From Prevotella sp. (GTDB lineage: Bacteria > Bacteroidota > Bacteroidia > Bacteroidales > Bacteroidaceae): a stretch of DNA of 55,668 nucleotides. A model generated the notes under the pieces. That model made no database searches, had not been told where the DNA came from, and worked only from the letters and a program-made list of their open reading frames with translations. Position 1 is the first letter of the stretch, and every line of letters starts with the position of its first letter. The stretch spans positions 1 to 55,668 of the forward strand of contig JAFQQY010000026.1 in NCBI GenBank assembly GCA_017410365.1, written 5' to 3'. A program made the position numbers and the translations under genes. Shown piece after piece: positions 18,771 through 45,076 of the stretch.

Positions 18771-19886
18771 TCAAGATTTTAATAGTCTGACAATGATACG
18801 TGCGGCATTGTCTGGTGCCTTGTTGTTTCCAAGGCGCTGTCTTACCTCCGCATATCCTTCAAGCATGGCATCCCTGCCACTTCCTCCCGGCAGGATGGCT
18901 GCCAATTCCTTGCGTATGTTTTCCACGCTGAATGTGTCGGCCACCAATTCCGTAACCACCTCCTTGTTGGCAATGAGGTTGACAAGTGAGATGTATTTTA
19001 CTTTAAGGACATGGCGGCGCAGGAAACCAAATACCTTGGCGATGGGCGTCTCGTAGCATACCACTTGCGGCACGTTGAAAAGTGCCGTCTCGAGTGTTGC
19101 CGTGCCACTGGTTACGAGTGCGGCAGTCGCTTGTCGGAGCAGCGGGTATGTCTGGTTGTATACCACATTGACGTGCGTGCCGTTGACAAACTGCTCGTAA
19201 TACTCTTTCTCTATGCTTGGTGCGCCAGCCAGTATTATATCATACCTATCAGCATGCTCTTTTGTTACCTCAATCATTGCCGGCAGATTGTCTTTAATCT
19301 CCTGTCGGCGACTGCCTGCAAGTAGGGCGATGATGGGCTTTGAGGTTTTGAGGTTTTGAGGTTCTGAGGTCATGAACTCCTCCACCTCATCTTGTGTGGG
19401 GTTGCCGACATAGTGGATGGGGTAGTGGTGCTTCCCCTCGAAAAACTCCTTTTCGAACGGTAGTATAGAGAACAGTTGGTCGATGTCGCGCTTTATGCTT
19501 TTTATGCGATACTCCTTCCATGCCCATATTTTCGGGGCTATATAGTAGTAGGCAGGAATATTGGTTTTCTCTTTCAGGTATTTTGCTATGCTGAGATTAA
19601 AGCCGGGATAGTCGACCAGGATAACAACATCCGGCTGCCATTCCGTGATGTCGCGCTTGCACATTTTCATATTGCCGAGAATGGTAGGCAAGTGCAGGAG
19701 CACGGGTATGAAACCCATGTAAGCCAGTTCTCTGTAATGCCTGACCATGGTGCCTCCCTCGGCAGCCATCATGTCGCCGCCGAAGAATCTGAACTGTGCA
19801 TCAGGGTCTTCCTTCTTTAATGAGCGCATCAGTCTTGAGGCATGCAAGTCGCCGCTGGCCTCGCCGGCAATAATATAGTATTTCAT
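18771..19886 (-). CDS. lpxB: Lipid-A-disaccharide synthase
   Basis: A 371-residue GT19 glycosyltransferase that joins UDP-diacylglucosamine and lipid X into the lipid A disaccharide at the inner membrane. The N-terminal AGEASGDLHASRLM and FFGGDMMAAEGG, the VDYPGFNLSIAKYLK segment, and the C-terminal-domain GSRRQEIKDNLP and LVTSGTATLET are all present. Between VGNPTQDEVEEF and PIIALLAGSRR a linker MTSEPQNLKTSK is encoded by four tandem octamers (19341-19372), the same TGAGGTTT repeat seen in non-coding DNA. The start overlaps the surE stop (TGATG), so the two are coupled. Confidence 0.94.
   Translation of the reverse strand: MKYYIIAGEASGDLHASRLMRSLKKEDPDAQFRFFGGDMMAAEGGTMVRHYRELAYMGFIPVLLHLPTILGNMKMCKRDITEWQPDVVILVDYPGFNLSIAKYLKEKTNIPAYYYIAPKIWAWKEYRIKSIKRDIDQLFSILPFEKEFFEGKHHYPIHYVGNPTQDEVEEFMTSEPQNLKTSKPIIALLAGSRRQEIKDNLPAMIEVTKEHADRYDIILAGAPSIEKEYYEQFVNGTHVNVVYNQTYPLLRQATAALVTSGTATLETALFNVPQVVCYETPIAKVFGFLRRHVLKVKYISLVNLIANKEVVTELVADTFSVENIRKELAAILPGGSGRDAMLEGYAEVRQRLGNNKAPDNAARIIVRLLKS
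19341..19372 (-). repeat. Octamer repeat inside lpxB coding sequence
   Basis: Four units of 8 bp (TGAGGTTT, TGAGGTTT, TGAGGTTC, TGAGGTCA on the + strand). Read on the coding strand they give PQNLKTSK-like sequence with no stop in any frame. Confidence 0.85.
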
Positions 19887-20653
19887 CAGAATGTCCAGTC
19901 CTTCATTTGTTCAATCATCTCGTAACTCGTCACGTCAATCCTTGTAGGCGTTATGGCAACGTAACCGTTGTTTATGGCCCAGTTGTCGGTATCCTCAGCC
20001 TCAGGTTCGTCGTTGCGGTATTCTCCAACCATCCAGTAGTAGTCATAGTTTCTTGGGTGGTGGCACATTACCGTCTCGTTGAACCATGTGCCCCATGCCA
20101 TTCGGCATACGCGTACCCCTTTGAACTCCTTCGCTTTCGGGAAGTTGACGTTAAGGCAGACGCCCTTTGGCAATCCCTCGCTGAGCAGTCTTTGCGTGAT
20201 GCTTCTTACGACGGCTCTTAGCGGTTCGAAGTCGGCATCCTCGTTGTAGTCGCATAGCGAGAATGCAACCGAAGGAATATATTTCATGCATCCCTCCATA
20301 GTAACCCCCATGGTGCCAGAGTAATGAGTGTTTACCGAAGCATTGTCGCCGTGGTTTATTCCGCCGATAACTATATCGGGAGTACGTGGGCATATTCTGG
20401 CCAGAGCCATCTTGACGCAGTCGACTGGGGTGCCGTTGCACGACCATATCTCAACCCCTTCTCGCTTGCTTTGCTGTTTTAATCGTAGTGGTGTCGTGGC
20501 AGAGAAAGCGCATGCGAATCCGCTTCTTGCCGAGTCGGGGGCACACACTATCACATCGCCCATGTCGGCCACCATGTCTATCAGGCTGTTGATGCCCTTG
20601 GCCTGGTAGCCGTCGTCGTTAGAAATTAATATCAAAGGTTTGTTACTTTTCAT
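19886..20653 (-). CDS. surE: 5'/3'-nucleotidase SurE
   Basis: A 255-residue SurE-type metal-dependent nucleotidase that removes phosphate from nucleoside monophosphates. The active-site start ISNDDGYQAKG (metal-binding Asp-Asp) lies at about residues 10-20; DSARSGFACA and INHGDNASVNTHYSGTMG complete the site. The ATG at 20653 (MKSNKP) is chosen over a start 24 nt upstream because the -7 box (20675-20682) overlaps the longer version. First gene of a two-gene operon with lpxB, transcribed away from parA. Confidence 0.94.
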   Translation of the reverse strand: MKSNKPLILISNDDGYQAKGINSLIDMVADMGDVIVCAPDSARSGFACAFSATTPLRLKQQSKREGVEIWSCNGTPVDCVKMALARICPRTPDIVIGGINHGDNASVNTHYSGTMGVTMEGCMKYIPSVAFSLCDYNEDADFEPLRAVVRSITQRLLSEGLPKGVCLNVNFPKAKEFKGVRVCRMAWGTWFNETVMCHHPRNYDYYWMVGEYRNDEPEAEDTDNWAINNGYVAITPTRIDVTSYEMIEQMKDWTF

Positions 20654-20674
20654 AAAATCTATTTCTTTCGTTTG

Positions 20675-20682
20675 CAAAAGTA
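20675..20682 (-). promoter_or_regulatory. -7 box of surE-lpxB
   Basis: TACTTTTG on the minus strand, 21 nt before the ATG. Confidence 0.6.
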
Positions 20683-20724
20683 CGAAAAAAGGTTCATAAA
20701 TAACATTTTCTCATATAAAATATG

Positions 20725-20732
20725 TATCTTTG
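20725..20732 (+). promoter_or_regulatory. -7 box of the parA operon
   Basis: TATCTTTG, 42 nt before the parA ATG; the -33 box is poor (TTTT near 20706). The two divergent -7 boxes are about 40 bp apart, so the promoters may compete. Confidence 0.55.
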
Positions 20733-20774
20733 CAAGCCAAACACATATATAAAATCGTTTGTTAAATACTAACA

Positions 20775-21542
20775 ATGGGAAAGATAATTGCTTTAGCAAA
20801 CCAAAAAGGAGGAGTGGGCAAAACCACCACGACAATCAATCTGGCAGCATCGCTTGCGACATTGGAGAAGAATGTGCTTGTGGTTGATGCCGATCCGCAG
20901 GCAAATGCATCCAGTGGTTTGGGTGTAGACATCAAGCAGGTGGACTGCTCTCTTTATGAGTGTATCATTGACAAGGCCGACATTCGCGACGCCATATATA
21001 CAACAGACATAGAAGGGCTGGATATTATTCCGAGCCACATAAACCTCGTGGGAGCAGAGATAGAGATGCTCAACGTGAACAACCGCGAGAAGGTGATTAA
21101 GAACATGCTTGCACCTATCGTAAACGAGTACGACTATATCCTAATCGATTGCAGTCCGTCGCTTGGTCTTATCACCGTCAACTCTCTGACTGCTGCCGAT
21201 TCTGTGATCATTCCTGTACAGTGCGAGTATTTCGCGCTTGAGGGAATCAGCAAGTTGCTTAACACCATAAAGATTATCAAGAGCAAGTTGAACACACGAC
21301 TGGAGATAGAGGGATTCCTGCTTACCATGTATGACTCTCGTCTGCGTCTGGCCAATCAGATATACGATGAGGTTAAGCGCCACTTCCAGGAACTGGTGTT
21401 CAAGACCGTCATACAGCGCAATGTCAAGCTTAGCGAGAGTCCAAGCCATGGTCTGCCTGTAATTCTCTATGATGCAGACTCAACAGGTTCGAAGAACCAT
21501 CTGGCATTGGCGAAGGAAATAATCAGTAAGAATACCAAATAA
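20775..21542 (+). CDS. parA: Chromosome partitioning ATPase ParA (Soj)
   Basis: A 255-residue ParA/Soj ATPase that with ParB moves the replication origin region to the cell poles. The deviant Walker A KGGVGKTT is at residues 10-17 (signature Lys at the start), Walker A' is VVDADPQANAS, and Walker B is YILIDCSPSLGL. The length fits chromosomal Soj proteins without an N-terminal extension. Followed 20 nt later by parB. The intact pair with relA/spoT behind supports a chromosomal, not plasmid, origin for the window. Confidence 0.95.
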   Translation: MGKIIALANQKGGVGKTTTTINLAASLATLEKNVLVVDADPQANASSGLGVDIKQVDCSLYECIIDKADIRDAIYTTDIEGLDIIPSHINLVGAEIEMLNVNNREKVIKNMLAPIVNEYDYILIDCSPSLGLITVNSLTAADSVIIPVQCEYFALEGISKLLNTIKIIKSKLNTRLEIEGFLLTMYDSRLRLANQIYDEVKRHFQELVFKTVIQRNVKLSESPSHGLPVILYDADSTGSKNHLALAKEIISKNTK

Positions 21543-21562
21543 CCGTTGTGTGACAAATAATC

Positions 21563-22495
21563 ATGGCAGTACAGAAGAAATATTCTAAGAGCACAAGCGT
21601 ATTGGGGCGCGGTCTCGACGACATAGGAAGCGGACGCGGTCTCGACGCACTTATAGATACGGGTGATGTCCGTACCCAAGGTTCCTCAAACCTCATTGAG
21701 GTGAGTATAGATCAGATAGCACCTAATCCTAATCAGCCTCGTAGAGAGTTTGACGAGGAAGCCCTTCAGGAACTGGCAGTGAGCATTAGTGAGATAGGTA
21801 TCATACAGCCTATCACGCTGCGCCAGATGCCCGATGGCAAATATCAGATTATAGCAGGTGAGCGTCGTTGGCGCGCCTCGCAGATTGCGGGCATGAGCAG
21901 TATTCCTGCTTATATCCGTACTGTTGAGGATGAGGGCGTGATGGAGATGGCGCTTGTTGAGAACATACAGCGCGAGGACCTCAATGCCATAGAGATAGCC
22001 TTGGCATACGAACATCTGGCAGAGGCAACAGGCATGACTCAGGAGAAGATAGCTGCACGTGTCGGCAAGAGCCGTACAGCCATCACCAACTACATGCGTT
22101 TGCTCCGTTTGCCAGCTCAAGTGCAGATTGCACTCAAGAACAAGGAGATAGACATGGGCCATGCCCGTGCCCTTCTGGCCATAACCAGTCCGAGTGCCCA
22201 GATAAAGCTCTTCAAGGAGATTCAGAAGAACGGCTATTCTGTAAGAAAGGTAGAGAGCATGGTTCAGATGCTGAAGAACGGCGAAGACATAAAGTTGGCG
22301 AAAAAGAAAATCACTAGCCAATCGCAATTGCCAGAGGAGTTCAACCTGCTAAAAGACCGTCTGTCAGACTTCTTCAAGACCAAGGTGCAAATGTCGCTCT
22401 CGCCTAAGGGTAAGGGCAAGATAAGCATACAGTTTGCCAACGAAGAAGAGTTGGAGCGAATAATGAATGCTCTCGACAGTGTTAATAACAAGTAG
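21563..22495 (+). CDS. parB: Chromosome partitioning protein ParB (Spo0J)
   Basis: A 310-residue ParB/Spo0J that binds parS sites and spreads as a CTP-dependent clamp. The N-terminal domain has PNPNQPRREFDEEAL and the CTP-binding box GERRWRA, then ENIQREDLNAIEIA. The central HTH (about 150-200: TQEKIAARVGKSRTAITNYM) binds parS; a C-terminal dimerisation region closes the protein. I did not see a perfect canonical parS (TGTTTCACGTGAAACA) in the window, but a mismatch-tolerant scan is needed. Confidence 0.95.
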   Translation: MAVQKKYSKSTSVLGRGLDDIGSGRGLDALIDTGDVRTQGSSNLIEVSIDQIAPNPNQPRREFDEEALQELAVSISEIGIIQPITLRQMPDGKYQIIAGERRWRASQIAGMSSIPAYIRTVEDEGVMEMALVENIQREDLNAIEIALAYEHLAEATGMTQEKIAARVGKSRTAITNYMRLLRLPAQVQIALKNKEIDMGHARALLAITSPSAQIKLFKEIQKNGYSVRKVESMVQMLKNGEDIKLAKKKITSQSQLPEEFNLLKDRLSDFFKTKVQMSLSPKGKGKISIQFANEEELERIMNALDSVNNK

Positions 22496-22546
22496 AAGAA
22501 AGCATAGATAAAGTTGAAGTGTTTTAAAAACATATTGTTTATCCGT

Positions 22547-23293
22547 ATGCTGATGGTTTGTATGATACAGATTGTCAGCATATTGAATCTATCGGCACAG
22601 TCGCAGACGCCACTCGTTGTCAAGCAGGCAAAGACCGTTGATAGCGTGGCGGTGGTGAAAGCCGACACGTTGGCACAGCCACTGCTTGGCGATAGTCTGC
22701 AGGTGGCTCTTGCAGAAGCCGATAGCGTGTTGCTTGGCGACGTGCTTGGCGATACGTTGAAAGTAAAACCCAAGCGCGACTGGTCTACGTGGCGGCCGAG
22801 TCCTCAGCGTGCCTTGTGGCTAGCTTTGGTGATACCCGGTGGCGGTCAGATATACAACCGCAAGTATTGGAAGCTGCCCATCGTCTATGGCGGAATGATG
22901 GGGTGTCTTTATGCCATGAACTGGAACAACATGATGTATAAAGACTATTCGCAGGCCTATCTCGATATTATGGATAGCGATCCTAATACTCAGAGCTACA
23001 ATAAGTTCCTGCACCTGGGTAAGCAGATAGACAGTTCCAACGAAGAGCGCTACAAGAAGATATTCAAGAGCCGTAAGGACAAGTATCGCCGTTGGCGAGA
23101 CCTCAGTTTCTTCTGTCTTCTGGGCGTTTATGCCATATCCGTGATTGATGCCTATGTCGATGCCGAGCTGTCGGAGTTTGACATATCCCGCGACCTGAGC
23201 CTAAAGGTTGAGCCGGCGGTCATCAACAACAACTCTTCGCGCAATGTCTTCGAGGCATCGTCTGTGGGAGTGCAGTGTAGTTTGAATTTTTAA
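22547..23293 (+). CDS. DUF5683 domain protein
   Basis: A Bacteroidota protein of unknown function that normally lies between parB and a lytic transglycosylase, as here. The first hydrophobic segment (MLMVCMIQIVSILNLSAQ) looks like a signal peptide. The DUF5683 region has PSPQRALWLALVIPGGGQIYNRKYWKLP (about residues 85-112), a membrane-associated stretch common in small membrane proteins, and a second hydrophobic segment LSFFCLLGVYAISVIDAYVDA. I prefer the ATG at 22547; a TTG at 22514 in frame would add 11 residues. Envelope localisation is inference. Confidence 0.82.
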   Translation: MLMVCMIQIVSILNLSAQSQTPLVVKQAKTVDSVAVVKADTLAQPLLGDSLQVALAEADSVLLGDVLGDTLKVKPKRDWSTWRPSPQRALWLALVIPGGGQIYNRKYWKLPIVYGGMMGCLYAMNWNNMMYKDYSQAYLDIMDSDPNTQSYNKFLHLGKQIDSSNEERYKKIFKSRKDKYRRWRDLSFFCLLGVYAISVIDAYVDAELSEFDISRDLSLKVEPAVINNNSSRNVFEASSVGVQCSLNF

Positions 23294-23317
23294 TATTAAA
23301 GCATTAAAACGATTATA

Positions 23318-24583
23318 ATGAATAAAAGAACATTACTCATAGCGGTAGGCTTGTTGTTGTGTGGCGTGGGCGCATCCGTTGCTCAGACCACTGCTGAGAA
23401 CGAGATTTCCGTTATAGGTAAAGATGGAAATCCTGAAGTTATTGAGATGCCAGAGGCAATGACCACCGATATAGACAGTTTACTGGGACTATATATGTCA
23501 AAGTCATATCTATATATTGATGAGAATTGCCAGACGGCAGACGAGAGTCCTACCTTCCCCCAGGAAGTCTATATCGAACGATTGAGTCGCATGCCAACAA
23601 TCATCGAAATGCCATACAATGATGTCGTTCGTCAGATGATAGACCGTTATGCCGTTCGTCTGCGTCGCTCAGTGTCATATATGCTTGGCGCTTCAAATTT
23701 CTACAATCCTATTTTCGAGCAAGCTCTTGAGGCATATAATCTGCCTATGGAGTTGAAATATCTTCCGGTGATAGAGTCGGCGCTAAATCCAGTCGCAGTG
23801 TCACGTGCCAAGGCCACCGGTCTATGGCAGTTTATGCTTGCCACAGGAAAGCAATACGGACTAAAGGTAAATTCGCTTGTCGATGAGCGTTGCGACCCGA
23901 TAAAGTCGTCTTATGCAGCCGCTCATTTCCTGAGTGACCTTTACAAGATTTTCGGCAACTGGCATTTGGTTATTGCCGCCTACAACTGCGGTCCGGAAAA
24001 CGTAAATAAAGCCATCCGCCGTTCCAACGGTGTAAAGGATTACTGGCAGATATACCCATATTTGCCAAAGGAAACCCGCGGCTATGTTCCTGCTTTTATT
24101 GCAGCCAACTATATCATGACCTACTATTGCGAGCACAATATCTGTCCGCTGCGCACCCAGTTGCCTATCTATACAGACACGATTATGCTCGACCGTAATG
24201 TTCATTTCGAGCAGATAGCAGCCTATTGTGGCTTGGCTGTAGAGCATATCAAGTCGCTCAATCCTTCCTACCGCAACAATATTATCCCCGGTCAGACGGA
24301 ACTGTCATGCCTTCGTTTGCCACAGTCATACATAAGCAAGTTTATTGACAACGAAGATTCTATCTATGCCTATAAGAAAGATTCTCTGTTGCCTAACCGT
24401 GCTGTGGTAGCGGTAAACAACAAGGAAGTGGCATCGTCTGGCGGACGTTATCATCGTGTCCGTTCTGGTCAGACACTTGGCGGCATTGCCCGTAAGTATC
24501 GCACGACAGTAAGTCGCATCAAGCGCCTCAACGGATTGCGGAGCAATAACATCAGAGTAGGACAGAGATTGAGAGTGAGATGA
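23318..24583 (+). CDS. Lytic murein transglycosylase with LysM (MltD-like)
   Basis: A 421-residue secreted cell-wall enzyme that cleaves the MurNAc-GlcNAc bond to form 1,6-anhydro ends. The signal peptide (residues 1-22, ending VAQT) has no lipobox. The SLT domain has the catalytic Glu in LPVIESALNP (about residue 150), then ATGLWQFMLATGKQYGL and VIAAYNCGPENVNKAI. One LysM domain closes the protein (RVRSGQTLGGIARKYR...IKRLNGL...VGQRLRV), giving peptidoglycan binding. Located between DUF5683 and relA/spoT, a conserved order in Bacteroidales. Confidence 0.92.
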   Translation: MNKRTLLIAVGLLLCGVGASVAQTTAENEISVIGKDGNPEVIEMPEAMTTDIDSLLGLYMSKSYLYIDENCQTADESPTFPQEVYIERLSRMPTIIEMPYNDVVRQMIDRYAVRLRRSVSYMLGASNFYNPIFEQALEAYNLPMELKYLPVIESALNPVAVSRAKATGLWQFMLATGKQYGLKVNSLVDERCDPIKSSYAAAHFLSDLYKIFGNWHLVIAAYNCGPENVNKAIRRSNGVKDYWQIYPYLPKETRGYVPAFIAANYIMTYYCEHNICPLRTQLPIYTDTIMLDRNVHFEQIAAYCGLAVEHIKSLNPSYRNNIIPGQTELSCLRLPQSYISKFIDNEDSIYAYKKDSLLPNRAVVAVNNKEVASSGGRYHRVRSGQTLGGIARKYRTTVSRIKRLNGLRSNNIRVGQRLRVR

Positions 24584-24601
24584 TAAGCAATATATAGAAA
24601 T

Positions 24602-26872
24602 ATGAATAGCGAGGATTTGATATTGCAAGAAGCAGACGATAAGTTGATAAATGATGCCTTTCAGCATCTTTTAGATACATACGTGGCATCACGTCACCGT
24701 AAGAAGGTGGATATAATTACCAAGGCGTTCAACTTTGCACGTCAGGCGCATAAGGGTGTTCGCCGCCTTTCAGGTGAACCATATATCATGCACCCTATAG
24801 CAGTGGCGCAGATTGCCTGCGAAGAGGTGGGCCTGGGCAGTACGAGTATCTGTGCAGCACTGCTTCACGACGTAGTTGAAGATACTGACTATACAACCGA
24901 GGACATTGAAAACATCTTCGGTGCAAAGGTGGCACAGATTGTTGACGGGCTGACAAAAATCAGTGGTGGCATCTTTGGTGACAAGGCATCGGCACAGGCA
25001 GAGAACTTCAAGAAACTCTTGCTCACGATGAGTGATGACATCCGCGTCATACTTATCAAGATTTGCGACCGCCTGCATAACATGCGTACTCTAGAAAGTC
25101 AGCCTGCCAACAAGCAGTATAAGATAGCCGGCGAGACATTATATATATATGCCCCACTTGCCAACCGCTTAGGTCTTAACAAGGTGAAGTCGGAACTCGA
25201 AGACCTCAGTTTCCGCTATGAACATCCAGAGGAGTACAACTCAATAAAGGAAAAGTTGGCATCGACACAAGAATCGCGCCATACGCTTTTCGACCAGTTT
25301 ACTGCTCCTATCGAGCAGTCGCTCGAGAAGATGGGTGTGAAATACGTCATCAAGGAACGTATAAAGACCCCATACTCCATCTGGAACAAGATGCAGAACA
25401 AGCACGTTACCTTTGATGAAATATACGACATACTGGCTGTTAGAATAATCTTCACTCCATCAAAGCGCGAAGATGAAATCAACGAATGCTTCAACATATA
25501 TGTTGCTATCAGTCAGATATACAAGTCGCATCCCGACCGCCTTCGAGACTGGCTTAACCATCCAAAGGCCAACGGCTATCAGGCATTGCATGTTACCCTG
25601 ATGTCAAAGCAGGGCCGCTGGATAGAAGTGCAGATAAGAAGCGACCGCATGGACGAGGTAGCAGAGCAAGGCTTTGCTGCCCACTGGAAATACAAGGACG
25701 GCGAGACCTCTGAGTTTACAGAAGACGAGGGCGAACTCAACGAGTGGCTGCAGACCATCAAGGAGATTCTCGACGACCCGCAGCCAGATGCCATGGACTT
25801 TCTCGATGCCATCAAGCTCAACCTTTTCGCTTCCGAAATATTCGTCTTCACCCCTAAGGGAGAGATTAAGACAATGCCGGCAGGATGTACTGCCCTTGAT
25901 TTCGCTTTCTCTATCCATACCTTCCTCGGCAGCCATTGTATAGGAGCCAAGGTAAACCACAAGCTTGTGCCACTTAGCTATAAGCTTCAGAGTGGCGATC
26001 AGGTGGAGATATTGACCTCTAAGTCGCAGCATGTGCAGCCCTCATGGATTAACTTTGCATCTACAGCAAAGGCAAAGGCAAAGATACAGGCTGCATTGCG
26101 CCGTGACAATCGTGAGACTCAGAAGGTGGGCGAGACATTGCTGTCCGATTTTCTTGGCAAGAACGACGTGACAATGACCAATGCCATTGTTGACCAGTTG
26201 ATGGCGCTGCATGATTTTCATAAGCGCGAAGACTTCATGCTTGCCATAGGCGAGAAGAAGGTGATACTGGGCGAGGGCGACCTTAACGAACTGAAAGGCA
26301 AGAAGAAAAAGAAGAAGGAAGGCAAGGGATGGAGGAAATTCATTCCGTTCCTAAAGTCTACTTCCCCTAGCACTGGCGAGAAAACCACAACGAAACTCTT
26401 CATCGTGCCGGAGAAGTTCAATCGTAAGAAGCCAATCTTCGTTACCGATGACAATATCTCTCAGTATAAGTTTGTAGACTGCTGTCATCCTATTCCTGGT
26501 GACGACATCCTCGGATTCATTGACAACAAGAACCAGATAGAGATACACAAACGCTCGTGTCCGGTGGCGGCAAAGCTGAAGTCGGCATACGGCAACCGTA
26601 TTCTCGATGCCAAGTGGGAGACTCACAAGCGTCTCTACTTCAATGCTGTGGTCCACATGCAAGGCATCGACCGTATCGGTCTGCTCAACGAGGTGACTAC
26701 TGTCATTTCCAATCAGATGAACATCAACATGAAGAAGGTGATGATAACCTGCGACGATGGCATCTTTGATGGCGTGTTCGACCTCCGTGTTCACGACCGA
26801 GAAGACCTGCAGACGCTAATCAGCAACCTGAAGAATATAAGTGATTTGCAGGAAGTGGCACAGGTGATGTAG
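24602..26872 (+). CDS. Bifunctional (p)ppGpp synthetase/hydrolase
   Basis: A 756-residue Rel/SpoT protein that makes and breaks the alarmone (p)ppGpp. The HD hydrolase domain has an intact HDVVEDTD motif with its His-Asp at residues 89-90. The synthetase domain follows (KTPYSIWNKMQNK, YDILAVRIIF, NGYQALHVTL). The TGS domain begins EIFVFTPKGEIKTMPAG. A Lys-rich linker (GKKKKKKEGKG, about 564-574) separates it from the zinc-finger/RIS part with CCHPIPGDD, and an ACT domain (GIDRIGLLNEVTTVIS) ends the protein. Both catalytic halves look functional, as expected for the single long RSH of Bacteroidota. Confidence 0.95.
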   Translation: MNSEDLILQEADDKLINDAFQHLLDTYVASRHRKKVDIITKAFNFARQAHKGVRRLSGEPYIMHPIAVAQIACEEVGLGSTSICAALLHDVVEDTDYTTEDIENIFGAKVAQIVDGLTKISGGIFGDKASAQAENFKKLLLTMSDDIRVILIKICDRLHNMRTLESQPANKQYKIAGETLYIYAPLANRLGLNKVKSELEDLSFRYEHPEEYNSIKEKLASTQESRHTLFDQFTAPIEQSLEKMGVKYVIKERIKTPYSIWNKMQNKHVTFDEIYDILAVRIIFTPSKREDEINECFNIYVAISQIYKSHPDRLRDWLNHPKANGYQALHVTLMSKQGRWIEVQIRSDRMDEVAEQGFAAHWKYKDGETSEFTEDEGELNEWLQTIKEILDDPQPDAMDFLDAIKLNLFASEIFVFTPKGEIKTMPAGCTALDFAFSIHTFLGSHCIGAKVNHKLVPLSYKLQSGDQVEILTSKSQHVQPSWINFASTAKAKAKIQAALRRDNRETQKVGETLLSDFLGKNDVTMTNAIVDQLMALHDFHKREDFMLAIGEKKVILGEGDLNELKGKKKKKKEGKGWRKFIPFLKSTSPSTGEKTTTKLFIVPEKFNRKKPIFVTDDNISQYKFVDCCHPIPGDDILGFIDNKNQIEIHKRSCPVAAKLKSAYGNRILDAKWETHKRLYFNAVVHMQGIDRIGLLNEVTTVISNQMNINMKKVMITCDDGIFDGVFDLRVHDREDLQTLISNLKNISDLQEVAQVM

Positions 26873-26953
26873 GAGTTTGGAATTAGGAATTAGGAGTTAG
26901 GAATTAGGAGTTAGGAATTAAGAATTATGAATTAAGAATTAAGCATTGAAAAC
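26873..26953 (+). repeat. Tandem GAATTAG/GAGTTAG heptamers before the pectinesterase
   Basis: About ten 7 bp units between the relA/spoT stop and the next start, decaying into GAATTAAGAATTAAGC. They are probably part of the leader if the gene is transcribed from upstream; no promoter box is obvious. Confidence 0.75.
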
Positions 26954-27931: not shown

Positions 27932-27959
27932 ATTTCCTCGGTTCCCACATATATATAAT

Positions 27960-27992
27960 AAGCCGTCTCTACCCATAGGGACGGCTTTTTTT
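27960..27992 (+). terminator. Terminator behind the pectinesterase
   Basis: AGCCGTC...GACGGCT stem with a 12 nt loop followed by seven T residues. Confidence 0.85.
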
Positions 27993-28057
27993 GTTCTTAA
28001 CACCGAAAAGTATGAAAAAAACATCAGATAATTCTTTATATTTTAACAATAAATTCT

Positions 28058-28065
28058 TACATTTG
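28058..28065 (+). promoter_or_regulatory. -7 box of the susC-like gene
   Basis: TACATTTG; TTTA at 28035-28038 lies 19 nt upstream as a weak -33. The inferred leader of about 80 nt is A-rich and shows no obvious riboswitch. Confidence 0.55.
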
Positions 28066-28153
28066 CACAGCGAAACTATTACGAATAGCATAAAACCATA
28101 AAATCAGTAAAGGAAACAACCATATTTTTTAAAATAACTAATAACTTAAATTT

Positions 28154-33693: not shown

Positions 33694-33810
33694 CGAATTT
33701 GCGGGAAATCGGGGAATTGGGTGTTTTAAATTTGCGGGAAATCGGGGATTTAGGTGTTTTAAATTTGCGGGAAATCGGGGATTTAGGTGTTTTAAATTTG
33801 CGGGAGAATG
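33694..33810 (+). repeat. 33 bp tandem array of promoter-like units
   Basis: Four units with core AATTTGCGGGAAATCGGGG; the first has a slightly different 3' part and the last is cut at GCGGGAG. Period is 33 bp. The junctions read TTTTAAATTTG, so each later unit carries a perfect -7 box TAAATTTG whose TTTG can also act as a -33 box. The TTTG of the last unit (33797-33800) sits exactly 20 nt before TATTTTTG at 33821-33828. Confidence 0.9.
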
Positions 33811-33828: not shown

Positions 33829-33851
33829 CACAGGAAACAGCATGTGTAATT

Positions 33852-35189: not shown

Positions 35190-35238
35190 TTTAGGTATGA
35201 TTCAGAACCCTATCACTTTTGTATGCTAACTGCACCAG

Positions 35239-35273
35239 TTACGACTCAAAAGTGGCGCAGTTTTGAGTCGTAA
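35239..35273. terminator. Bidirectional terminator between convergent genes
   Basis: Perfect 13 bp arms TTACGACTCAAAA / TTTTGAGTCGTAA around a 9 nt loop, between the ATPase stop (35189) and the barrel-protein stop (35282). Confidence 0.75.
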
Positions 35274-35281
35274 GTGGCATA

Positions 35282-37867: not shown

Positions 37868-37878
37868 TGTATATACGT

Positions 37879-38763: not shown

Positions 38764-38793
38764 ACTTCAACTGTTTTTATAAGTTTCAGAAAG

Positions 38794-38801
38794 CAAAATT
38801 A
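38794..38801 (-). promoter_or_regulatory. -7 box of the GLPGLI operon
   Basis: TAATTTTG on the minus strand, 30 nt before the start. The 118 bp to the opposing -7 box (38919) is the likely binding region of the divergently encoded response regulator; direct AATTATTACT repeats lie in it at about 38848-38870. Confidence 0.55.
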
Positions 38802-38918
38802 CGGGCTTGACATCATTCAGGGAAAAATAATCATTACTCTATCATTGGGAATTATTACTAAATTATTACTGAGTATGTTATTTAACCTTTGGATAGACTA
38901 CAAACAAGATAATTGTGG

Positions 38919-38926
38919 TAATTTTG
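38919..38926 (+). promoter_or_regulatory. -7 box of the histidine kinase gene (leaderless)
   Basis: TAATTTTG ends 4 nt before the ATG at 38931, which puts the transcript start at or next to the start codon. The nearest TTTG (38889-38892) is 26 nt away, outside the usual spacing. Confidence 0.5.
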
Positions 38927-38930
38927 CAGC

Positions 38931-40388
38931 ATGGAAAAGAGAATTAAGATACTTCATTGGTTGACTATTGTGGTTATCATTGCTTTCTGTATGATGCAAT
39001 GCTATTGGCTATATAACCGTTATATATATACATTACAGAGTTACGAAGATGAGTTGTATAGCAGTGTTATTGATGTGATGCTGGAAGAACACAATATGCG
39101 AAAAGCCATAAAGCGTCCCGATATCAGTATTCTTACGAATACAAAGATTTCTGCCTCTTCTTTATCTGATTCAGCTGGAATACAGAGTACTATTTTTGAT
39201 ATATATGTCGTGGACCTCAAAAAGATAGATATTTCCAATGTTATCAATGCCGACATAAAGGAGATTATCAGGCTTTATGAGACCTCGAAGCCCGATGGTA
39301 TCACTCACTATAATTTTGAAATTACCGATAAGCCGACTGATCCTAACGAATATGATGCATTGGAGCGCTTTACAGTTGATGTACGCAATCCCTTCAAACT
39401 GTCAAGTATCGATTCTCTATTAAGAATACGAGGTTTGACATTGGATAATATATCCATTCAGAAAGCAGACACAATGGTTTGGATTCCAATAAGAACAGAG
39501 CATACCTCCATTTTATCCCCTCAGATAACTATAACATATCCATACGACATTTTTGAAGGCGAGGCGGTATCGGCAACACTGACAGTCGGGATGTCTCCTG
39601 TCATAGCAAAGATGATGGACCTATTGATAATGTCCCTTGTGCTCTCCTTCCTACTCATAACTTGTCTTGTAGCACAGATTGCCATCATACGCAAGCAACG
39701 CAAATTGGAAGAGTTGCGCCAAGATTTCATACATACGATGATTCACGAGCTGAAACGGCCTATATCCACATTGAAGATGTGTGTTTCATTTATGCGTAAC
39801 GAGAAACTGATGCAGGATAAGGAAAGTAAGGATGCAATAATTGCCGAATCAAGCAATGAATTGGATAATCTGTCATCCTATTTCTCTAAATTGCGGGATC
39901 TTACATTCAATGATGCAACGGAGATACCATTAACATTATCGGCTTTTAATCTGCGTGATACGATTAAGGAGTGTGTAGGTAAATTATCCATACCAATAGG
40001 GAAAAAGGCAGAGATAAATATTCTATCGAAAGAGGATATTGTTCTCACGGCCGACAAGATGCATATTGGCAATATCATCAGCAATCTATTGGAGAACTCT
40101 ATAAAGTATTCCGGCGAAAGCGTCATGATTGATATTGATTATCAGGAGAACAGCAACGATTCGGTATGCATAACCGTTAAGGACAACGGCTTCGGCATTG
40201 CAAAGAGCGATGTCAGCTATATATACGACAAGTTCTTCCGCAGCCGCTCTGCATCAGATAGGGATATACCGGGCATGGGATTGGGTCTGGCATATGTAAA
40301 ACAACTGGTGCAGGCTCATAGAGGCTGTATCGTGATTGAGAGCGAAGAGGGAGTCGGAACACTATTCACCATAAACCTACCACAATAA
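38931..40388 (+). CDS. Sensor histidine kinase
   Basis: A 485-residue membrane sensor kinase. One membrane span near residues 9-28 and a second near 220-242 enclose a periplasmic sensor part of about 190 residues with no recognised domain. The phosphoacceptor is His272 in IHELKRPIS. The ATPase domain has the N box NLLENSIKYSGE, the G1 box DNGFGIAKSD and the G2 box GMGLGLAYVKQL. No HAMP is obvious. The stop overlaps the response regulator start (TAATG). Divergence from the GLPGLI/barrel operon suggests the pair senses envelope conditions or the barrel's ligand and controls that operon. Confidence 0.94.
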   Translation: MEKRIKILHWLTIVVIIAFCMMQCYWLYNRYIYTLQSYEDELYSSVIDVMLEEHNMRKAIKRPDISILTNTKISASSLSDSAGIQSTIFDIYVVDLKKIDISNVINADIKEIIRLYETSKPDGITHYNFEITDKPTDPNEYDALERFTVDVRNPFKLSSIDSLLRIRGLTLDNISIQKADTMVWIPIRTEHTSILSPQITITYPYDIFEGEAVSATLTVGMSPVIAKMMDLLIMSLVLSFLLITCLVAQIAIIRKQRKLEELRQDFIHTMIHELKRPISTLKMCVSFMRNEKLMQDKESKDAIIAESSNELDNLSSYFSKLRDLTFNDATEIPLTLSAFNLRDTIKECVGKLSIPIGKKAEINILSKEDIVLTADKMHIGNIISNLLENSIKYSGESVMIDIDYQENSNDSVCITVKDNGFGIAKSDVSYIYDKFFRSRSASDRDIPGMGLGLAYVKQLVQAHRGCIVIESEEGVGTLFTINLPQ

Positions 40389-41068
40389 TGAGCAATACAA
40401 TTAACATTTTGTTGGTTGATGATGACCTCAAGAACTCGATGTTATTGAAGCGTTTCCTTGAGGTGGAAGGATTTTGCGTGACATACGCAAACAACGGAGC
40501 CATCGGTTGGGAACTATACCACACCTCGAAGCCAGATCTGATACTGCTCGACATCAATATGCCAGAGATGAATGGCTTTGAGTTGGCACAAAAGATACGC
40601 GATGTGAACCAAAAGGTTCTGATATTCTTCCTTACAGACCGCACGGAAAAAGATGACAGGCTCAAAGGCTTCAGCCTGAAGGGTAATGACTACATCCCTA
40701 AGCCGTTTTATCCCGAGGAATTGATAGCAAAGATAAAGGAGCGTTTTGAGAACAGAAGTATCGAAATGCAGCGAGAATTTATCATTGGAAATACGCTCTT
40801 TGACAGTAACCTATCCACTGTAACATACAACGGAGTGTCACACACGCTCACTGCAAGGCAAACAGACATACTGTTGCTCCTTTCTCAGAATATAGGCACA
40901 ATGATTGAGCGTGAGCATATCCTTAAAACCGTCTGGGGCGATGACAGCAATGCCAACTCACTTGCTTTGAATGTGCAGATTACCTATTTGCGTAGGATAC
41001 TTGAAGATGATAAAAGCATCTCTATCGTATCCTTAAAGAAGAAAGGATATATATTGCAGATTAAGTAA
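40388..41068 (+). CDS. OmpR-family response regulator
   Basis: A 226-residue response regulator. In the receiver domain the phosphoacceptor is Asp55 in LLDINMPEMNGFE, the acidic pair is in LVDDDLKNS, and the Lys is in YIPKPFYPEEL. The C-terminal winged-helix DNA-binding domain (about 130-226) has LTARQTDILLLLSQN and NVQITYLRRILEDD, typical of the OmpR/PhoB group. It is coupled to the kinase by a one-base stop/start overlap. A large nested palindrome follows the gene. Confidence 0.95.
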   Translation: MSNTINILLVDDDLKNSMLLKRFLEVEGFCVTYANNGAIGWELYHTSKPDLILLDINMPEMNGFELAQKIRDVNQKVLIFFLTDRTEKDDRLKGFSLKGNDYIPKPFYPEELIAKIKERFENRSIEMQREFIIGNTLFDSNLSTVTYNGVSHTLTARQTDILLLLSQNIGTMIEREHILKTVWGDDSNANSLALNVQITYLRRILEDDKSISIVSLKKKGYILQIK

Positions 41069-41080
41069 AACTTACAATTT

Positions 41081-41143
41081 GGTATACTGCCTATATACCA
41101 TCGGTATAAACGGCGTATACCAAAAGTATATAGGCAGTATACC
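41081..41143 (+). terminator. Nested palindrome behind the response regulator
   Basis: Outer arms GGTATACTGCCTATATAC (41081-41098) and its exact complement (41126-41143), 18 bp. Within the loop, a second pair GGTATA (41103-41108) / TATACC (41116-41121). The right arm is followed by GTTTTTG, so it can end the kinase/regulator transcript. The size and the repeated GGTATA words are unusual for a simple terminator. Confidence 0.65.
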
Positions 41144-41201
41144 GTTTTTGAATGGTGTGTTAGGAATATCCGATAAATTCTTGTAATATTTCCAAAGGAT
41201 A

Positions 41202-41411
41202 CTATTTCTCTTTGTATTCCAACATCAATTCATCAGCTAGGTATTCATCGCTGCGGCAATGCATGTCGGCAATGCCTTCACTTATAAGCTTATATGTATC
41301 AGAATCGTAGAAGAATGCCAAAGAGTCTTCAAGTGACAGGCCTGATTCCTTGGCAAAAATTGCAACGATTCGGGCGTACTTCATCTGTAATATAGTTTTG
41401 TTTGCTTCCAT
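41202..41411 (-). CDS. DUF3791 family small protein (distal copy)
   Basis: A 69-residue protein of the DUF3791 type, small helical proteins usually encoded beside DUF3990. It has ARIVAIFAKESGLSLEDSLAFFYDSDTYKLI, then ISEGIADMHCRSDEYLADEL. It starts 4 nt behind the DUF3990 stop and ends the operon. It resembles the proximal DUF3791 protein in length and layout but not closely in sequence, so the two may have different partners or roles. The function is unestablished. Confidence 0.8.
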   Translation of the reverse strand: MEANKTILQMKYARIVAIFAKESGLSLEDSLAFFYDSDTYKLISEGIADMHCRSDEYLADELMLEYKEK

Positions 41412-41415
41412 GCTG

Positions 41416-41889
41416 TTATATACGTGTGGCTTTAATGAAATGAAGATGGCGCTCGAGCATGTGTCCGTTTAGAATGCATAGTTGATTGTTTGGCTTTTCG
41501 AACTTCAGCCGTCCGAGTGCTTCGCTTTTGGTAATAACTCCAGCAAAATAAAGGTCAACAGTATTGAACACATGATCATCTGCTATACCACCACTTACGG
41601 CATCGTAACTATACTTTACCTGCAGCCCTTTACGACATGCCGCCACATATTCAAGCCATTCTTCATTATAGCTAGAAAAAGATTTTATAGTGAATTCAGG
41701 TGTTTCTTCGTCTAATTCATATTCATTGACAAATGCAATCTTGCCTCTGCGAGTAAACCGTTCTGCATAGCGCACTGCCTGTTCGCGGATACTTGTTAGG
41801 TAGAAACCAGGACCAAAATCCAATTTGCTGCGTGAATGCAGAACATCAGGTTTTTCAATGACAACAGTTGATGCGTGATACAATCTCAT
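41416..41889 (-). CDS. DUF3990 family protein, ADP-ribosyltransferase-like
   Basis: A 157-residue DUF3990 protein. The family is placed in the ADP-ribosyltransferase superfamily by fold comparison. The visible core is LYHAST near the N-terminus (His of the first strand), DFGPGFYLTSIREQAVRYAERF (Gly-x-Tyr strand followed by a helix, about residues 24-46) and a late EALGRLKFEKPNNQLC (candidate Glu). If active it would modify a cell target using NAD. It starts inside the stop of the upstream DUF3791 gene (4 nt overlap), so the genes are translationally coupled. A toxin flanked by two small regulators is the attractive reading, unproven. Confidence 0.8.
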   Translation of the reverse strand: MRLYHASTVVIEKPDVLHSRSKLDFGPGFYLTSIREQAVRYAERFTRRGKIAFVNEYELDEETPEFTIKSFSSYNEEWLEYVAACRKGLQVKYSYDAVSGGIADDHVFNTVDLYFAGVITKSEALGRLKFEKPNNQLCILNGHMLERHLHFIKATRI

Positions 41890-42101
41890 GCCAATGCTCC
41901 TTTTTCACGTAAAACTTCCGTTAGCTCTTCTACAAGATATTCCTTGCTGAATGTGTGCAACGTGTCATAACATGGTATGATATATCCGTTTAGCACTCCA
42001 GAAGAACGCAATGCATTATATACTTGCGATGCACTTTTGCCGAGGCTCTCTTCTAGACTTCCTACGCAAAAGGTAATGAATTCTAAATGGTCTGTTTTCA
42101 T
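41886..42101 (-). CDS. DUF3791 family small protein (proximal copy)
   Basis: A 71-residue DUF3791 protein (FITFCVGSLEESLGKSASQVYNALRSSG), first gene of the three-gene operon. Its length, its charge and the 4 nt overlap with DUF3990 fit an antitoxin-like partner. A promoter lies upstream on the minus strand: TTTG at 42151-42154, 20 nt, TACCTTAG at 42123-42130 (one mismatch in the -7 box). Confidence 0.8.
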   Translation of the reverse strand: MKTDHLEFITFCVGSLEESLGKSASQVYNALRSSGVLNGYIIPCYDTLHTFSKEYLVEELTEVLREKGALA

Positions 42102-42122
42102 GTTGTGACTTATTATTGCTTG

Positions 42123-42154
42123 CTAAGGTAATATATTTTTTTGAATTTTGCAAA
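42123..42154 (-). promoter_or_regulatory. Promoter of the DUF3791-DUF3990-DUF3791 operon
   Basis: TTTG (42151-42154), 20 nt spacer, TACCTTAG (42123-42130) on the minus strand; the ATG follows 21 nt later. The -7 box has A instead of T at one position, which suggests a weak or activator-dependent promoter. Confidence 0.6.
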
Positions 42155-42193
42155 TAATGAGGGAAAAAGTGCTGATAATGTGATAGTTCTTTT

Positions 42194-43234
42194 TTACGAA
42201 TTCACAATCCCCAACATCCTATCAAGGTTTTCTTTGTTGTTGGCAGCAACAATGCCACTGGGATGGAGGTATGTGGGGGCGTTGCCGTTGAGGTCGGCAA
42301 TTACTCCTCCTGCCTCTGTGAGAATCAGCGATGCTGCTGCAAAATCCCATGGACTGAGCAGATACTCGAAGTACATCTCGCAACGACCCATGGCCAGATA
42401 GCACAATTCGGGAGCACAGGCACCGAAACGGCGGATGTCGTTGCACTGGGTGAATGCTTCAAGGATTATCTTTGAACATAGTGGGGCGTACTCCTTGTGA
42501 TATACGGGTAGGGCTGTGCAGAGTATGCCGTTGGCAAACGGACGGTCGGACACATGTATCTGTTTGCCGTTACGGAAAGCCCCTTTGCCTCGCTCTGCAT
42601 AGAACAGTTCGTTGGTACGGGGAATGTAAACAATGCCTAATATTATAGTTGCAGGGAAACCTCCCCTAACCCCTCCGAAGGAGGGGAAATCGGAATTTGA
42701 TGTAGTTGATGAATTAGTCGTTTCTGTTAACGAGTTGCTGCTACAAGAAGGTGATGTCTGAACTCCTACACTCCTGCACTCCTGCACTCCTGAAGAAAAC
42801 TCTTTTTCTTCCAAAACCCCCAACCCCACGCATATCGCGCACTGGTCAATGCCTCGGGCAAAGTTGGCAGTACCGTCTATCGGGTCGATAATCCAAGTGT
42901 ATTGTTTAGGTTTTGAGGTTTTGAGGTTTTGAGGTTCTAAGGCGTTTGTTACTTCAGAAGGTAATGTCTGCACTCCTGCACTCCTGCACTCCTGCACTCC
43001 TTGAAGTGTTGTCAACTCGTCAACTTCTTCAATATCATCCTCCTCACAAAGAAATCCGCTGCCAGGCAGCAGTTCCTTCAGGTGTTTGCAAAGATATTCC
43101 TGTACAGCAACATCGGTGCTTGTAACAATATTGGCATATCCCTCTTTGCTTGTTATCTCAAACGAAGCCCCTTCCATCAGTCTTGCAGCCTCGCGTACTA
43201 TCTCTATCAGTCTGTCCTTAATGTCTAAAGTCAT
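42194..43234 (-). CDS. Inositol monophosphatase family protein with repeat-derived insertions
   Basis: A 346-residue phosphatase of the IMPase/SuhB/CysQ superfamily, which hydrolyses small phosphate esters with Mg2+. Metal-binding motifs are CEEDDIEE (about residue 80), WIIDPIDGTANFARG and, near the end, SPWDFAAASLILTEAGG. Without two insertions it would be about 264 residues, normal for the family. The insertions are QGVQECRSAGVQTLPS plus EPQNLKTSK (encoded about 42915-43012) and a longer one with GVQECRSVGVQTSPS, SSNSLTETTNSS and DFPSFGGVRGGF (about 42655-42800). Each piece matches an intergenic repeat family. The frame stays open throughout. The promoter -7 box (TAATTTTG) is at 43258-43265. 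Confidence 0.87.
   Translation of the reverse strand: MTLDIKDRLIEIVREAARLMEGASFEITSKEGYANIVTSTDVAVQEYLCKHLKELLPGSGFLCEEDDIEEVDELTTLQGVQECRSAGVQTLPSEVTNALEPQNLKTSKPKQYTWIIDPIDGTANFARGIDQCAICVGLGVLEEKEFSSGVQECRSVGVQTSPSCSSNSLTETTNSSTTSNSDFPSFGGVRGGFPATIILGIVYIPRTNELFYAERGKGAFRNGKQIHVSDRPFANGILCTALPVYHKEYAPLCSKIILEAFTQCNDIRRFGACAPELCYLAMGRCEMYFEYLLSPWDFAAASLILTEAGGVIADLNGNAPTYLHPSGIVAANNKENLDRMLGIVNS
42661..42800 (-). repeat. Repeat insertion 2 inside the IMPase gene
   Basis: From left to right on the + strand: the hairpin element CCTCCCCTAACCCCTCCGAA/GGAGGGG (42661-42687), a GTAGTTGATGAATTAGTCG stretch, and GCACTCCT octamers (about 42764-42790). All three occur in non-coding DNA elsewhere in the window. 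Confidence 0.85.
42905..43005 (-). repeat. Repeat insertion 1 inside the IMPase gene
   Basis: Octamers GGTTTTGA (about 42908-42938) and GCACTCCT (about 42972-43001), separated by about 30 bp of unrelated-looking sequence. On the coding strand they read PQNLKTSK and GVQECRSA. Confidence 0.85.
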
Positions 43235-43308
43235 GATTATATAAGTAAAAGTTATTGCAAAATTAGTGTTTTTTTCATTAAAGCAAAATATATATGATAA
43301 ATATTCAG

Positions 43309-43316
43309 TAACTTTG
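43309..43316 (+). promoter_or_regulatory. -7 box of the ABC-F gene
   Basis: TAACTTTG, 20 nt before the ATG. It lies about 45 bp from the opposing IMPase -7 box, so the two genes diverge from a short shared region. Confidence 0.55.
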
Positions 43317-43336
43317 CAGAAAAGAACAAGAAAATA

Positions 43337-45076
43337 ATGATATCAGTAGAAGGACTAACCGTCGAATTCGGCGGTACGACATTGTTTAAAGACATATCTT
43401 TCCAGATAAACGAGAAAGACCGCATAGCCCTAATGGGAAAAAATGGTGCAGGAAAGAGTACCATGCTTAAGATATTGGCTGGCGTCAGACAACCTACAAG
43501 AGGCAGCGTGCAGGTGCCTAAGGACTGCGTGGTGGCTTATCTGCCACAGCACCTGATGACTGAAGACGGTCGCACCGTGTTTGAAGAGACATCACAGGCA
43601 TTTGCTCACCTTAGGGAGATAGAGAAAGAGATAGAAGAGATAAACGAACAACTGGCTACGCGCACCGATTATGAGAGTGAGTCGTATATGGCTCTGATAG
43701 AGAAGGTGAGTGCCATGAGCGAGAAGTTCTATGCCATAGACATGACCCACTTCGAGGAGAATGTGGAGAAGACGCTGCTTGGACTCGGTTTTGAACGCAC
43801 CGATTTCGACAAACCTACGAGTGAGTTCTCTGGCGGATGGCGTATGCGCATAGAACTGGCGAAGCTGCTGCTCAAGGACCCCGACGTGCTTTTGCTCGAC
43901 GAGCCAACCAACCACCTCGACATCGACAGTATTCAGTGGCTGGAGGAGTTTATAAAGACATCATCGAAGGCAGTGGTTGTAATCAGTCACGACCGCAAGT
44001 TTGTTGATACCATCACCACCCGAACCATCGAGGTGACCATGGGACGCATCTACGACTACAAGGCCACATATAGTCACTATCTCGAACTCCGCAAGGAACG
44101 CCGCGAACAGCAGCAGAAGCAGTATGAAGAGCAACAGAAGATGATTCAGGAGACGAAAGACTTCATAGAACGCTTCAAGGGAACATACGCCAAGACGCTG
44201 CAGGTGAAGAGCCGCGTCAAGATGCTGGAGAAACTGGAACTGGTGGAGGTTGACGAGGAAGACACCTCACGTCTGCGTTTGAAGTTCCCGCCATCACCAC
44301 GCAGCGGCAGTTACCCGGTGCAGGCGGATGGAGTGGGGAAGACATATTATGCTAATAAAGTAGACGAGTTAACAAGTGGACAAGTAAACAAGTTAAATGA
44401 TTCGGAAACAAACAACTCGTCAACTCGTCAACTTGTCAACTCGTCAACTTGTAAAACCGTCTTCCGCAACGCCACGTTTACTATTGAGCGCGGTCAGAAG
44501 GTTGCCTTTGTCGGTAGAAACGGTGAGGGAAAATCTACTATGGTGAAGTGCATAATGGGACAGCTTGAGCATGAGGGCACACTGACACTGGGGCATAACG
44601 TGCAGATAGGTTACTTCGCACAGAACCAGGCATCGCTGCTTGACGATGAACTGACTGTGTTCCAGACCATCGACGACATAGCCAAGGGCGAGGTGCGCAA
44701 CAAGATTCGCGACCTGCTCGGAGCCTTTATGTTCGGTGGTGAGGAGAGCACCAAGAAGGTTAAGGTGCTGTCGGGAGGAGAACGAACACGTCTGGCCATA
44801 CTCAAACTGTTGCTCGAACCCGTCAACCTGTTGATTCTCGACGAGCCAACCAACCATCTTGATATAAAGACGAAGGACATTCTGAAGCAGGCACTGGTAG
44901 ATTTCGACGGTACACTGATTGTTGTAAGTCACGACCGCGACTTCCTCGATGGTCTTGTAACCAAGGTCTATGAGTTCGGTCAGCAGCGCGTGCGCGAGCA
45001 CCTCTGCGGCATCTATGAGTTCCTTGAAACTAAGAAGATGGAGAATCTGCAGGAATTGGAGAAGAAAAATAAGTAG
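43337..45076 (+). CDS. ABC-F family ATPase with repeat-derived linker insertion
   Basis: A 579-residue soluble protein with two ABC ATPase domains and no membrane part. ABC-F proteins act on ribosomes (translation factors such as EttA/Uup-like, or antibiotic protection). Domain 1 has Walker A GKNGAGKST, signature FSGGWRMRI and Walker B VLLLDEPTNHLD; domain 2 has GRNGEGKST, LSGGERTRL and LLILDEPTNHLD. Between them lies the ABC-F linker of charged helices (RKERREQQQKQYEEQQK). After YYANKV, about 34 residues (DELTSGQVNKLN...SSTRQLVNSST) derive from an octamer repeat also seen in intergenic DNA. Without it the length would be the usual 545. No features of a resistance subtype are visible. Confidence 0.92.
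   Translation: MISVEGLTVEFGGTTLFKDISFQINEKDRIALMGKNGAGKSTMLKILAGVRQPTRGSVQVPKDCVVAYLPQHLMTEDGRTVFEETSQAFAHLREIEKEIEEINEQLATRTDYESESYMALIEKVSAMSEKFYAIDMTHFEENVEKTLLGLGFERTDFDKPTSEFSGGWRMRIELAKLLLKDPDVLLLDEPTNHLDIDSIQWLEEFIKTSSKAVVVISHDRKFVDTITTRTIEVTMGRIYDYKATYSHYLELRKERREQQQKQYEEQQKMIQETKDFIERFKGTYAKTLQVKSRVKMLEKLELVEVDEEDTSRLRLKFPPSPRSGSYPVQADGVGKTYYANKVDELTSGQVNKLNDSETNNSSTRQLVNSSTCKTVFRNATFTIERGQKVAFVGRNGEGKSTMVKCIMGQLEHEGTLTLGHNVQIGYFAQNQASLLDDELTVFQTIDDIAKGEVRNKIRDLLGAFMFGGEESTKKVKVLSGGERTRLAILKLLLEPVNLLILDEPTNHLDIKTKDILKQALVDFDGTLIVVSHDRDFLDGLVTKVYEFGQQRVREHLCGIYEFLETKKMENLQELEKKNK
44355..44452 (+). repeat. Octamer repeat insertion inside the ABC-F gene
   Basis: The left arm is a degenerate GTTGACAA-type run (about 44361-44395); the right arm has five octamers CAACTCGT/CAACTTGT (44413-44452). 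The arms are complementary and can form a long imperfect hairpin. The linking word AAACAAACAACTCGTCAAC also occurs in the non-coding array at 47660-47800. Confidence 0.88.

Follow-up and report, generated by a model that had tools for sequence, protein, structure and literature searches.

What are the short tandem arrays that recur between and inside the genes of Prevotella sp. contig JAFQQY010000026.1 (assembly GCA_017410365.1), and how did they come to lie in coding sequence? The window, that is, the whole stretch analysed, is one entire contig of 55,668 bases from a 3.28 Mb draft genome (89.4% complete); 40 further stretches from that genome were added, so that the scan covered 794,553 bases of own-genome DNA. 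Many of the arrays are arms of a dispersed composite, in which a purine-strand array is followed by a short core and a pyrimidine-strand array. These composites are probably copies of a dispersed, non-autonomous repeat element with tandem-unit arms, filtered by reading frame where they lie in genes.

Tandem Arrays and Their Units

The octamer-type arrays are real, and their number greatly exceeds what chance would give. At periods 7, 8, 9, and 10 there were 19, 35, 3, and 3 exact runs with 2.5 or more copies, against 1, 0, 0, and 0 runs at the same threshold in one second-order Markov shuffle, and no such run was present at periods 11 to 13 in the 794,553 bases. In the window alone, 19 exact runs of at least two copies occurred at period 8, compared with a mean of 0.9 and a maximum of 5 in 20 first-order Markov resamplings. 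An earlier note on this DNA had described the units as 8 bp long and as belonging to three distinct families. Period 8 is the most frequent, but periods 7, 9, and 10 also exceed the shuffle, whereas 11 to 13 do not. Likewise, the three unit types were found, but they look like variants of one purine-rich unit.

Judged by their letters, the array families as a whole look like one kind. The recurrent purine-rich units GGAGTGNA, CGAGTTGA, GGATTGAA, TGAGGTTW, GGATTAA, GAGTTAG, and GGATGAG are mutually similar, and the pattern GA[GAT][TG][TGA] was present on one strand in 90 of 113 units (period 7 or 8, at least three copies), whereas 300 letter shuffles averaged 53 and reached at most 66. Units also differ within single arrays.

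Facing Arms and Cores

Arrays were scored as R (purine-strand) or Y (pyrimidine-strand) according to their orientation. Among 79 pairs of neighbouring arrays less than 400 bp apart, the order RY was found 35 times and YR 12 times (p = 0.001); the others were RR (17), YY (8), or undecided (7). Each arm consists of tandem copies of a purine-strand unit, 7-10 bp long and pointing at the core, across which two arms face each other. At the inner end of GGAGTGNA arrays, GACGTATGC, GACAATAGC, or a similar sequence recurs, and ATTTGC or GCTTGC recurs at the inner end of AGTTGACRAGTT arrays. GAC[AG] stood directly after the array, or one unit further on, in 19 of 32 GGAGTGNA arrays and lay within 40 nt of 29 of the 32, against a background of 0.9% directly after unit-like ends elsewhere. 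Taken as exact patterns, these two cores had 36 and 19 sites in the genome, and the same two patterns read backwards had none. In the two main families (GGAGTGNA and AGTTGACR), intergenic arrays followed a T-run in 16 of 22 and 15 of 21 cases, the background being 24% of intergenic positions; these counts, like the comparison of open reading frames (ORFs) with intergenic DNA below, exclude the GGATGAG and GAAGATA families.

We found 31 composites. Six carry the same family in both arms; these fold strongly into a long hairpin (mean z -5.5), and their arms are inverted repeats. A general hairpin function was rejected, since only these 6 of 31 fold. The mixed-family type accounts for 14 of the 15 genic composites; thus, a palindromic structure is not a property of each copy.

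Copies in Three Genes of the Window

LpxB, ABC-F, and inositol monophosphatase were identified through Pfam, and the SusC/SusD-like proteins of the window by eye; this gene content indicates Bacteroidales. The first three of these genes carry the following features.

42194-43234, minus strand: inositol monophosphatase gene, with arrays at 42758-42792, 42908-42936, and 42968-43001
42911-43021, minus strand: inositol monophosphatase insert 1, 111 nt, with a GGAGTGCA array, a core starting GACATTACC, and a CCTCAAAA array; a gap in the G215 homologue
42641-42799, minus strand: inositol monophosphatase insert 2, 159 nt, with a GGAGTGCA array, a core starting GACATCACC, a degenerate AACTCGTT-type stretch, and a GC-rich palindrome; a gap in the G215 homologue
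44360-44452, plus strand: ABC-F insert, residues 342-372, with an AGTTGAC-type arm whose third unit is changed, a 19-base gap, and a facing AACTCGTC arm
19339-19370, minus strand: CCTCAAAA-type array of lpxB, in a linker that varies among relatives, with no net length gain

The presence of CCTCAAAA, GGAGTGCA, and GTCAACTC arrays in these genes, and of arrays between genes, was as the earlier note had reported, and so were the peptides read from the genic arrays (PQNLKTSK/EPQNLKTS, GVQECRSA, and VNSSTRQL types). The inositol monophosphatase homologue of genome G215 lacks both inserts, its largest matching segment being 71% identical. Mapped on the solved chain 9vep, one insert falls between residues 69 and 75, the first side of which depends on a weak segment, and the other between 106 and 113. 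In TypA of another genome, 38 residues stand at one loop where the solved protein has 5 (about 33 extra). The module of insert 2 was found again in L128 and L134. Insert 2 also holds one copy of a GC-rich dispersed repeat (42658-42686), read as DFPSFGGVRGGFP.

The ABC-F element, with arrays at 44358-44449, lies immediately before the second nucleotide-binding domain and is the sole hairpin-folding composite among the window's genes (z -5.9). Its peptides were absent from all 11 aligned relatives. Some relatives carry other short filler at this position, and an ABC-F paralogue in the own genome matches both flanks of the element with about 6 nt between them. The linker of LpxB differs in all 11 aligned relatives, and in length the window's own ranks with the shortest in this set of 12. 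At this variable linker, LpxB of the relative L205 (G236) reads PPLPLERKGEG, which resembles a further dispersed repeat translated in frame.

Modules in Other Genes

A search of the own genome with one module returned more copies, including two in a glucanotransferase (MalQ-like) frame and two in a methionine-synthase-like (MetH-like) frame, and the inositol monophosphatase, MalQ-like, and MetH-like frames share one peptide module. Module peptides were present in 15 further frames of the own genome, all 15 with a Pfam match, including Mfd-like, MutS2-like, Dus, and MenC-like proteins; this count omits a 203-aa frame with the motif in L022, judged probably spurious. Other genomes provide further cases. 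In G179, a 700-aa frame, transporter-like by eye, contains three arrays. A sugar-kinase-like gene (by eye) has a CCTCAAAA array of the same length at the same place in L048 and L063, which are 95.5% identical, with only point differences, indicating that an array can be kept by descent. In L191 (1-2389) of the own genome, a gene is broken at the element: a TPR/HisKA frame stops there and a response-regulator/HTH frame begins, and neither of the two parts matched a HATPase domain. Taken together, the homologues without inserts and the further genes with modules support what the earlier note had read from the arrays, namely insertion into genes and spread of similar linkers through the proteome. 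The selection for readable orientation that it also proposed does not follow, because ORF calling forces that orientation.

Reading Frame and Orientation

It had been claimed that every frame of the arrays is open. The claim is correct for CCTCAAAA, GGAGTGCA, and GGAGTTCA and for arrays in the GTCAACTC orientation. Two frequent variants, GGAGTGTA and GGAGTGAA, contain TAG or TGA in one frame. By computation, AGTTGACR, TGAGGTTW, GGATTGAA, and GGATGAG are closed as purine arms, and the heptamers GGATTAA and GAATTAG are closed on both strands; the reverse strand of GGAGTGNA was open for three of the four variants tested. Inversion rescues no closed purine arm, because a composite reads R-core-Y on both strands. 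Genes do carry the open orientation in every case, but the observation is close to circular and proves little, because an array within a called ORF has to be open. L191 shows that a gene can also be broken. The altered TGA triplets in the left arm of the ABC-F element had been taken as a sign of such selection. Only the third unit (AGTTGAC to AGTGGAC) would hold an in-frame TGA; the other changed units would be open even if unaltered, and AGTAAAC is found in arrays between genes as well. In the genic AGTTGACR purine arm of L010, only the third unit, the one with the in-frame TGA, is altered.

The families were also counted by strand and location, with arrays assigned to ORFs or intergenic DNA by a home-made hexamer ORF picker. 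Among R-oriented arrays, GGAGTGNA made up 8 of 10 within ORFs and 22 of 94 in intergenic DNA (Fisher p = 0.0006), an excess that is suggestive but that ORF calling partly forces, because a gene stopped by another family would count as intergenic. The sole TGAGGTTW array scored as R-sense lies at the end of a called ORF (L029). Genic GGAGTGNA arrays were R-sense in 8 of 10 cases (p = 0.11), or in 8 of 8 (p = 0.008) after removal of two doubtful antisense calls, at 51330 (before the likely true rmuC-like start) and in L021 (a dubious ORF). This placement is forced less by ORF calling than the family excess is. The coding-strand purine arm was GGAGTGNA in 14 of the 15 genic composites, but 10 of the 15 lie in loci retrieved by a query containing a GGAGTGNA arm.

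Occurrence in Other Genomes

Among 201 genomes of the family (own included), three copies in a row were found in 4 genomes for CCTCAAAA, in 6 for AGGAGTGH, and in 21 for AGTTGACR, and none of the 201 contained the backward-read version of any of the three. In GTDB contigs, triple CCTCAAAA occurred in 65 stretches, 46 from Bacteroidota, including one from Minthosoma, which we take to belong there, and 19 from other groups. Ten of 68 CCTCAAAA runs in GTDB stretches lay inside a long open frame; 13 of the 68 were within 300 bases of a stretch end, where a frame may be missed. L149 from G137, which belongs to a different genus, has facing AGTTGACR arrays, and in L155 from G123 a GGAGTGTA array is accompanied by a related core. 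Triple AGTTGACR occurred in five IMG/VR stretches; carriage by phages was considered but not retained as an explanation. An assembly artefact is unlikely because arrays also occur in the genomes G092 (2 contigs, 99% complete) and G149 (10 contigs). In G092 (L141, L143), AGTTGACR arrays and a trailing GCTTGCAGCAATAAA-type stretch are together tandemly repeated.

Intergenic Arrays and Other Repeats of the Window

The intergenic sites of the window, for which strand does not apply, are as follows.

331-482: composite of a GATTAAG array, a core GGTTTGCTTGCC...GCTATTGTCTG (core site 372-388), and facing CACTCCTG/A-type arrays
10349-10513: cluster of a AGTTGACA array, a AACGAATTA array, a GGAGTGNA array with core GACAATAGC (core site 10469-10485), and a CTTTAAT array
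45122-45224: period-8/16 array ACTCAAAA/ACTTATAA, directly before the gene at 45228
47675-47803: TCAACTCG-type arrays, ending directly before the gene at 47806
51282-51363: composite before the likely rmuC-like start, with a TGAGGTTW-type array, core GGCATACGTC (core site 51321-51337), and a facing CACTCC array
53934-54018: composite of a AGTTGACA array, core ATTTGCAAACAAAC, and a facing CTCATCT array

Three repeats of other kinds were also seen. A 68-bp unit is repeated 5.2 times at 96% between the tRNA-Gln and RsfS genes (14617-14965). Where an AAA_14/DUF4143 frame starts (33696-33805), 3.3 copies of a 33-bp unit are read as NLREIGDLGVL. The GC-rich dispersed repeat (CCTCCCCTAACCCCTCCGAAGGAGGGG type) lies at 4819-4845, 5760-5786, 8043-8069, 17338-17490, 42658-42686, and 45081-45109.

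Origin of the Composites

Copies of the composite lie between genes and also within ordinary genes, where they are read through in frame in loops and linkers; in the cases tested, relatives lack the peptides. If the composites are a dispersed element, its arms may grow longer and more varied as a short unit slips, which the variation among units suggests, and the whole composite would be copied to new sites. Purifying selection would then leave mainly genic copies with a readable purine arm, either of GGAGTGCA type or an AGTTGAC arm that is short or lacks an in-frame TGA, and the read-through products would be similar linker peptides rich in Ser, Thr, Asn, and Gln. Several observations weigh against this explanation. 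No mobilising enzyme was found, and a Y1 transposase is absent from the 89%-complete draft genome. No strain pair with an empty site was seen, the best match to the FtsH gene among 398 genomes of the genus being 77% identical. No target-site duplication, which a miniature inverted-repeat transposable element (MITE) would show beside its terminal inverted repeats, is evident at the inositol monophosphatase inserts, where the compared homologue is too distant to judge, and in LpxB the array replaces a variable linker rather than adding to it. The T-run is not enriched in the other four families (6/16, 2/18, 1/6, and 4/11 intergenic arrays), and the 25 mixed-family composites among the 31 show no folding on average (mean z -0.9).

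A rival reading is that of ordinary microsatellites, each array having arisen in place by polymerase slippage after a chance duplication, with look-alike units that reflect a biased slippage spectrum rather than copying. Unit variation within arrays and the clustering of periods at 7-10, with none at 11-13, agree with such an origin, the latter as predicted by the polymerase-footprint idea quoted in PMC4692102. We nevertheless regard it as unlikely, given that non-repetitive cores recur beside the same families, that facing order is biased, and that similar peptides, core stretch included, appear in unrelated genes. The strong folding of same-family copies could instead point to regulatory hairpins, either terminators or 5' leader structures, with accidental genic copies, and some arrays do stop just before start codons (47675-47803). 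However, arrays occur at 1.53 per kb in co-directional, 1.35 in convergent, and 0.87 in divergent gaps, so convergent gaps are not enriched; the T-run stands before the purine arm and outside it, whereas an intrinsic terminator would have it on the other side; and an Rfam gathering search of the window matched only a tRNA. A terminator or promoter role was rejected, as array positions do not match it, and regulatory hairpins in general appear highly improbable. To a repetitive extragenic palindromic (REP) or REPIN-like element moved by a RAYT (Y1) transposase we give hardly any credence. Its units would likewise be short, dispersed, and palindromic, and same-family copies fold, but Y1_Tnp (PF01797) was found in 7 of 21 carriers against 12 of 21 non-carriers (genomes chosen by us) and nowhere in the own 89%-complete genome. 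Because Y1 transposases do not track with the arrays, this origin is disfavoured.

Relation to Known Repeats and Significance

The closest known systems are the convergent GGGAATC heptamers of Xanthomonas and the Rickettsia palindromic elements, and each property seen here has a precedent. As described in PMC4692102, the GGGAATC heptamers form dispersed purine-rich runs of heterogeneous units, with close convergent pairs (70 and 75 cases), some 7-11% lying wholly or partly within ORFs, and few between divergent genes. Purine(G)-rich tandem units in convergent pairs are common to both systems. In contrast, the present arrays comprise several 7-10 bp families, join arms of different families across a core, and form in-frame modules that give similar peptides in many genes; the G-tract unit GGGAATC is not among their recurrent units (AGTTGACR, GGAGTGNA, TGAGGTTW, GGATTGAA, and others), and they have no G-runs of the G-quadruplex (G4) type. 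The Rickettsia elements are described in PMC10969869 as palindromes of about 150 bp, inserted in frame in unrelated metabolic genes and giving a similar peptide in each. Going by that description, in-frame insertion into unrelated genes and the similar peptide are shared, whereas tandem-unit arms with exchangeable families and mostly non-palindromic genic copies set the present composites apart. The enterobacterial RU-1, RU-2, and RU-3 are MITE-like, 103-168 bp long, and located between and inside genes with open frames (PMC2759123). By their description, they differ in having no tandem-octamer arms. In a weak search of the open-access literature, we found no earlier description in Bacteroidota of the combination of interchangeable families, cores, and many in-frame genic copies.

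Heterocystous cyanobacteria (Calothrix, Nostoc) contain several dispersed families of short tandemly repeated repetitive (STRR) heptamers, for which we know of no facing-arm composite or core.

Discussion of bacterial short tandem repeats mostly concerns phase-variation switches; the present ones appear to be arms of a dispersed element that enters housekeeping genes and remains readable there. It is possible, and we suggest it only tentatively, that a so far undescribed system of Bacteroidota assembles modular elements (array, core, and facing array, with exchangeable arms) out of 7-10 nt units, copies them, and has written near-standard linkers (GVQECRS...NSSTRQLVNSST, PQNLKTSKPQNL) into many housekeeping enzymes. 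If this is true, protein linkers would change through the insertion of elements and not through point mutations. The genic copies are natural insertions with which to ask where enzymes tolerate new linkers. These results raise the question of what spreads units of 7-10 bp, together with their cores, to further sites, and whether repeat elements feed the flexible regions of Bacteroidota proteins.

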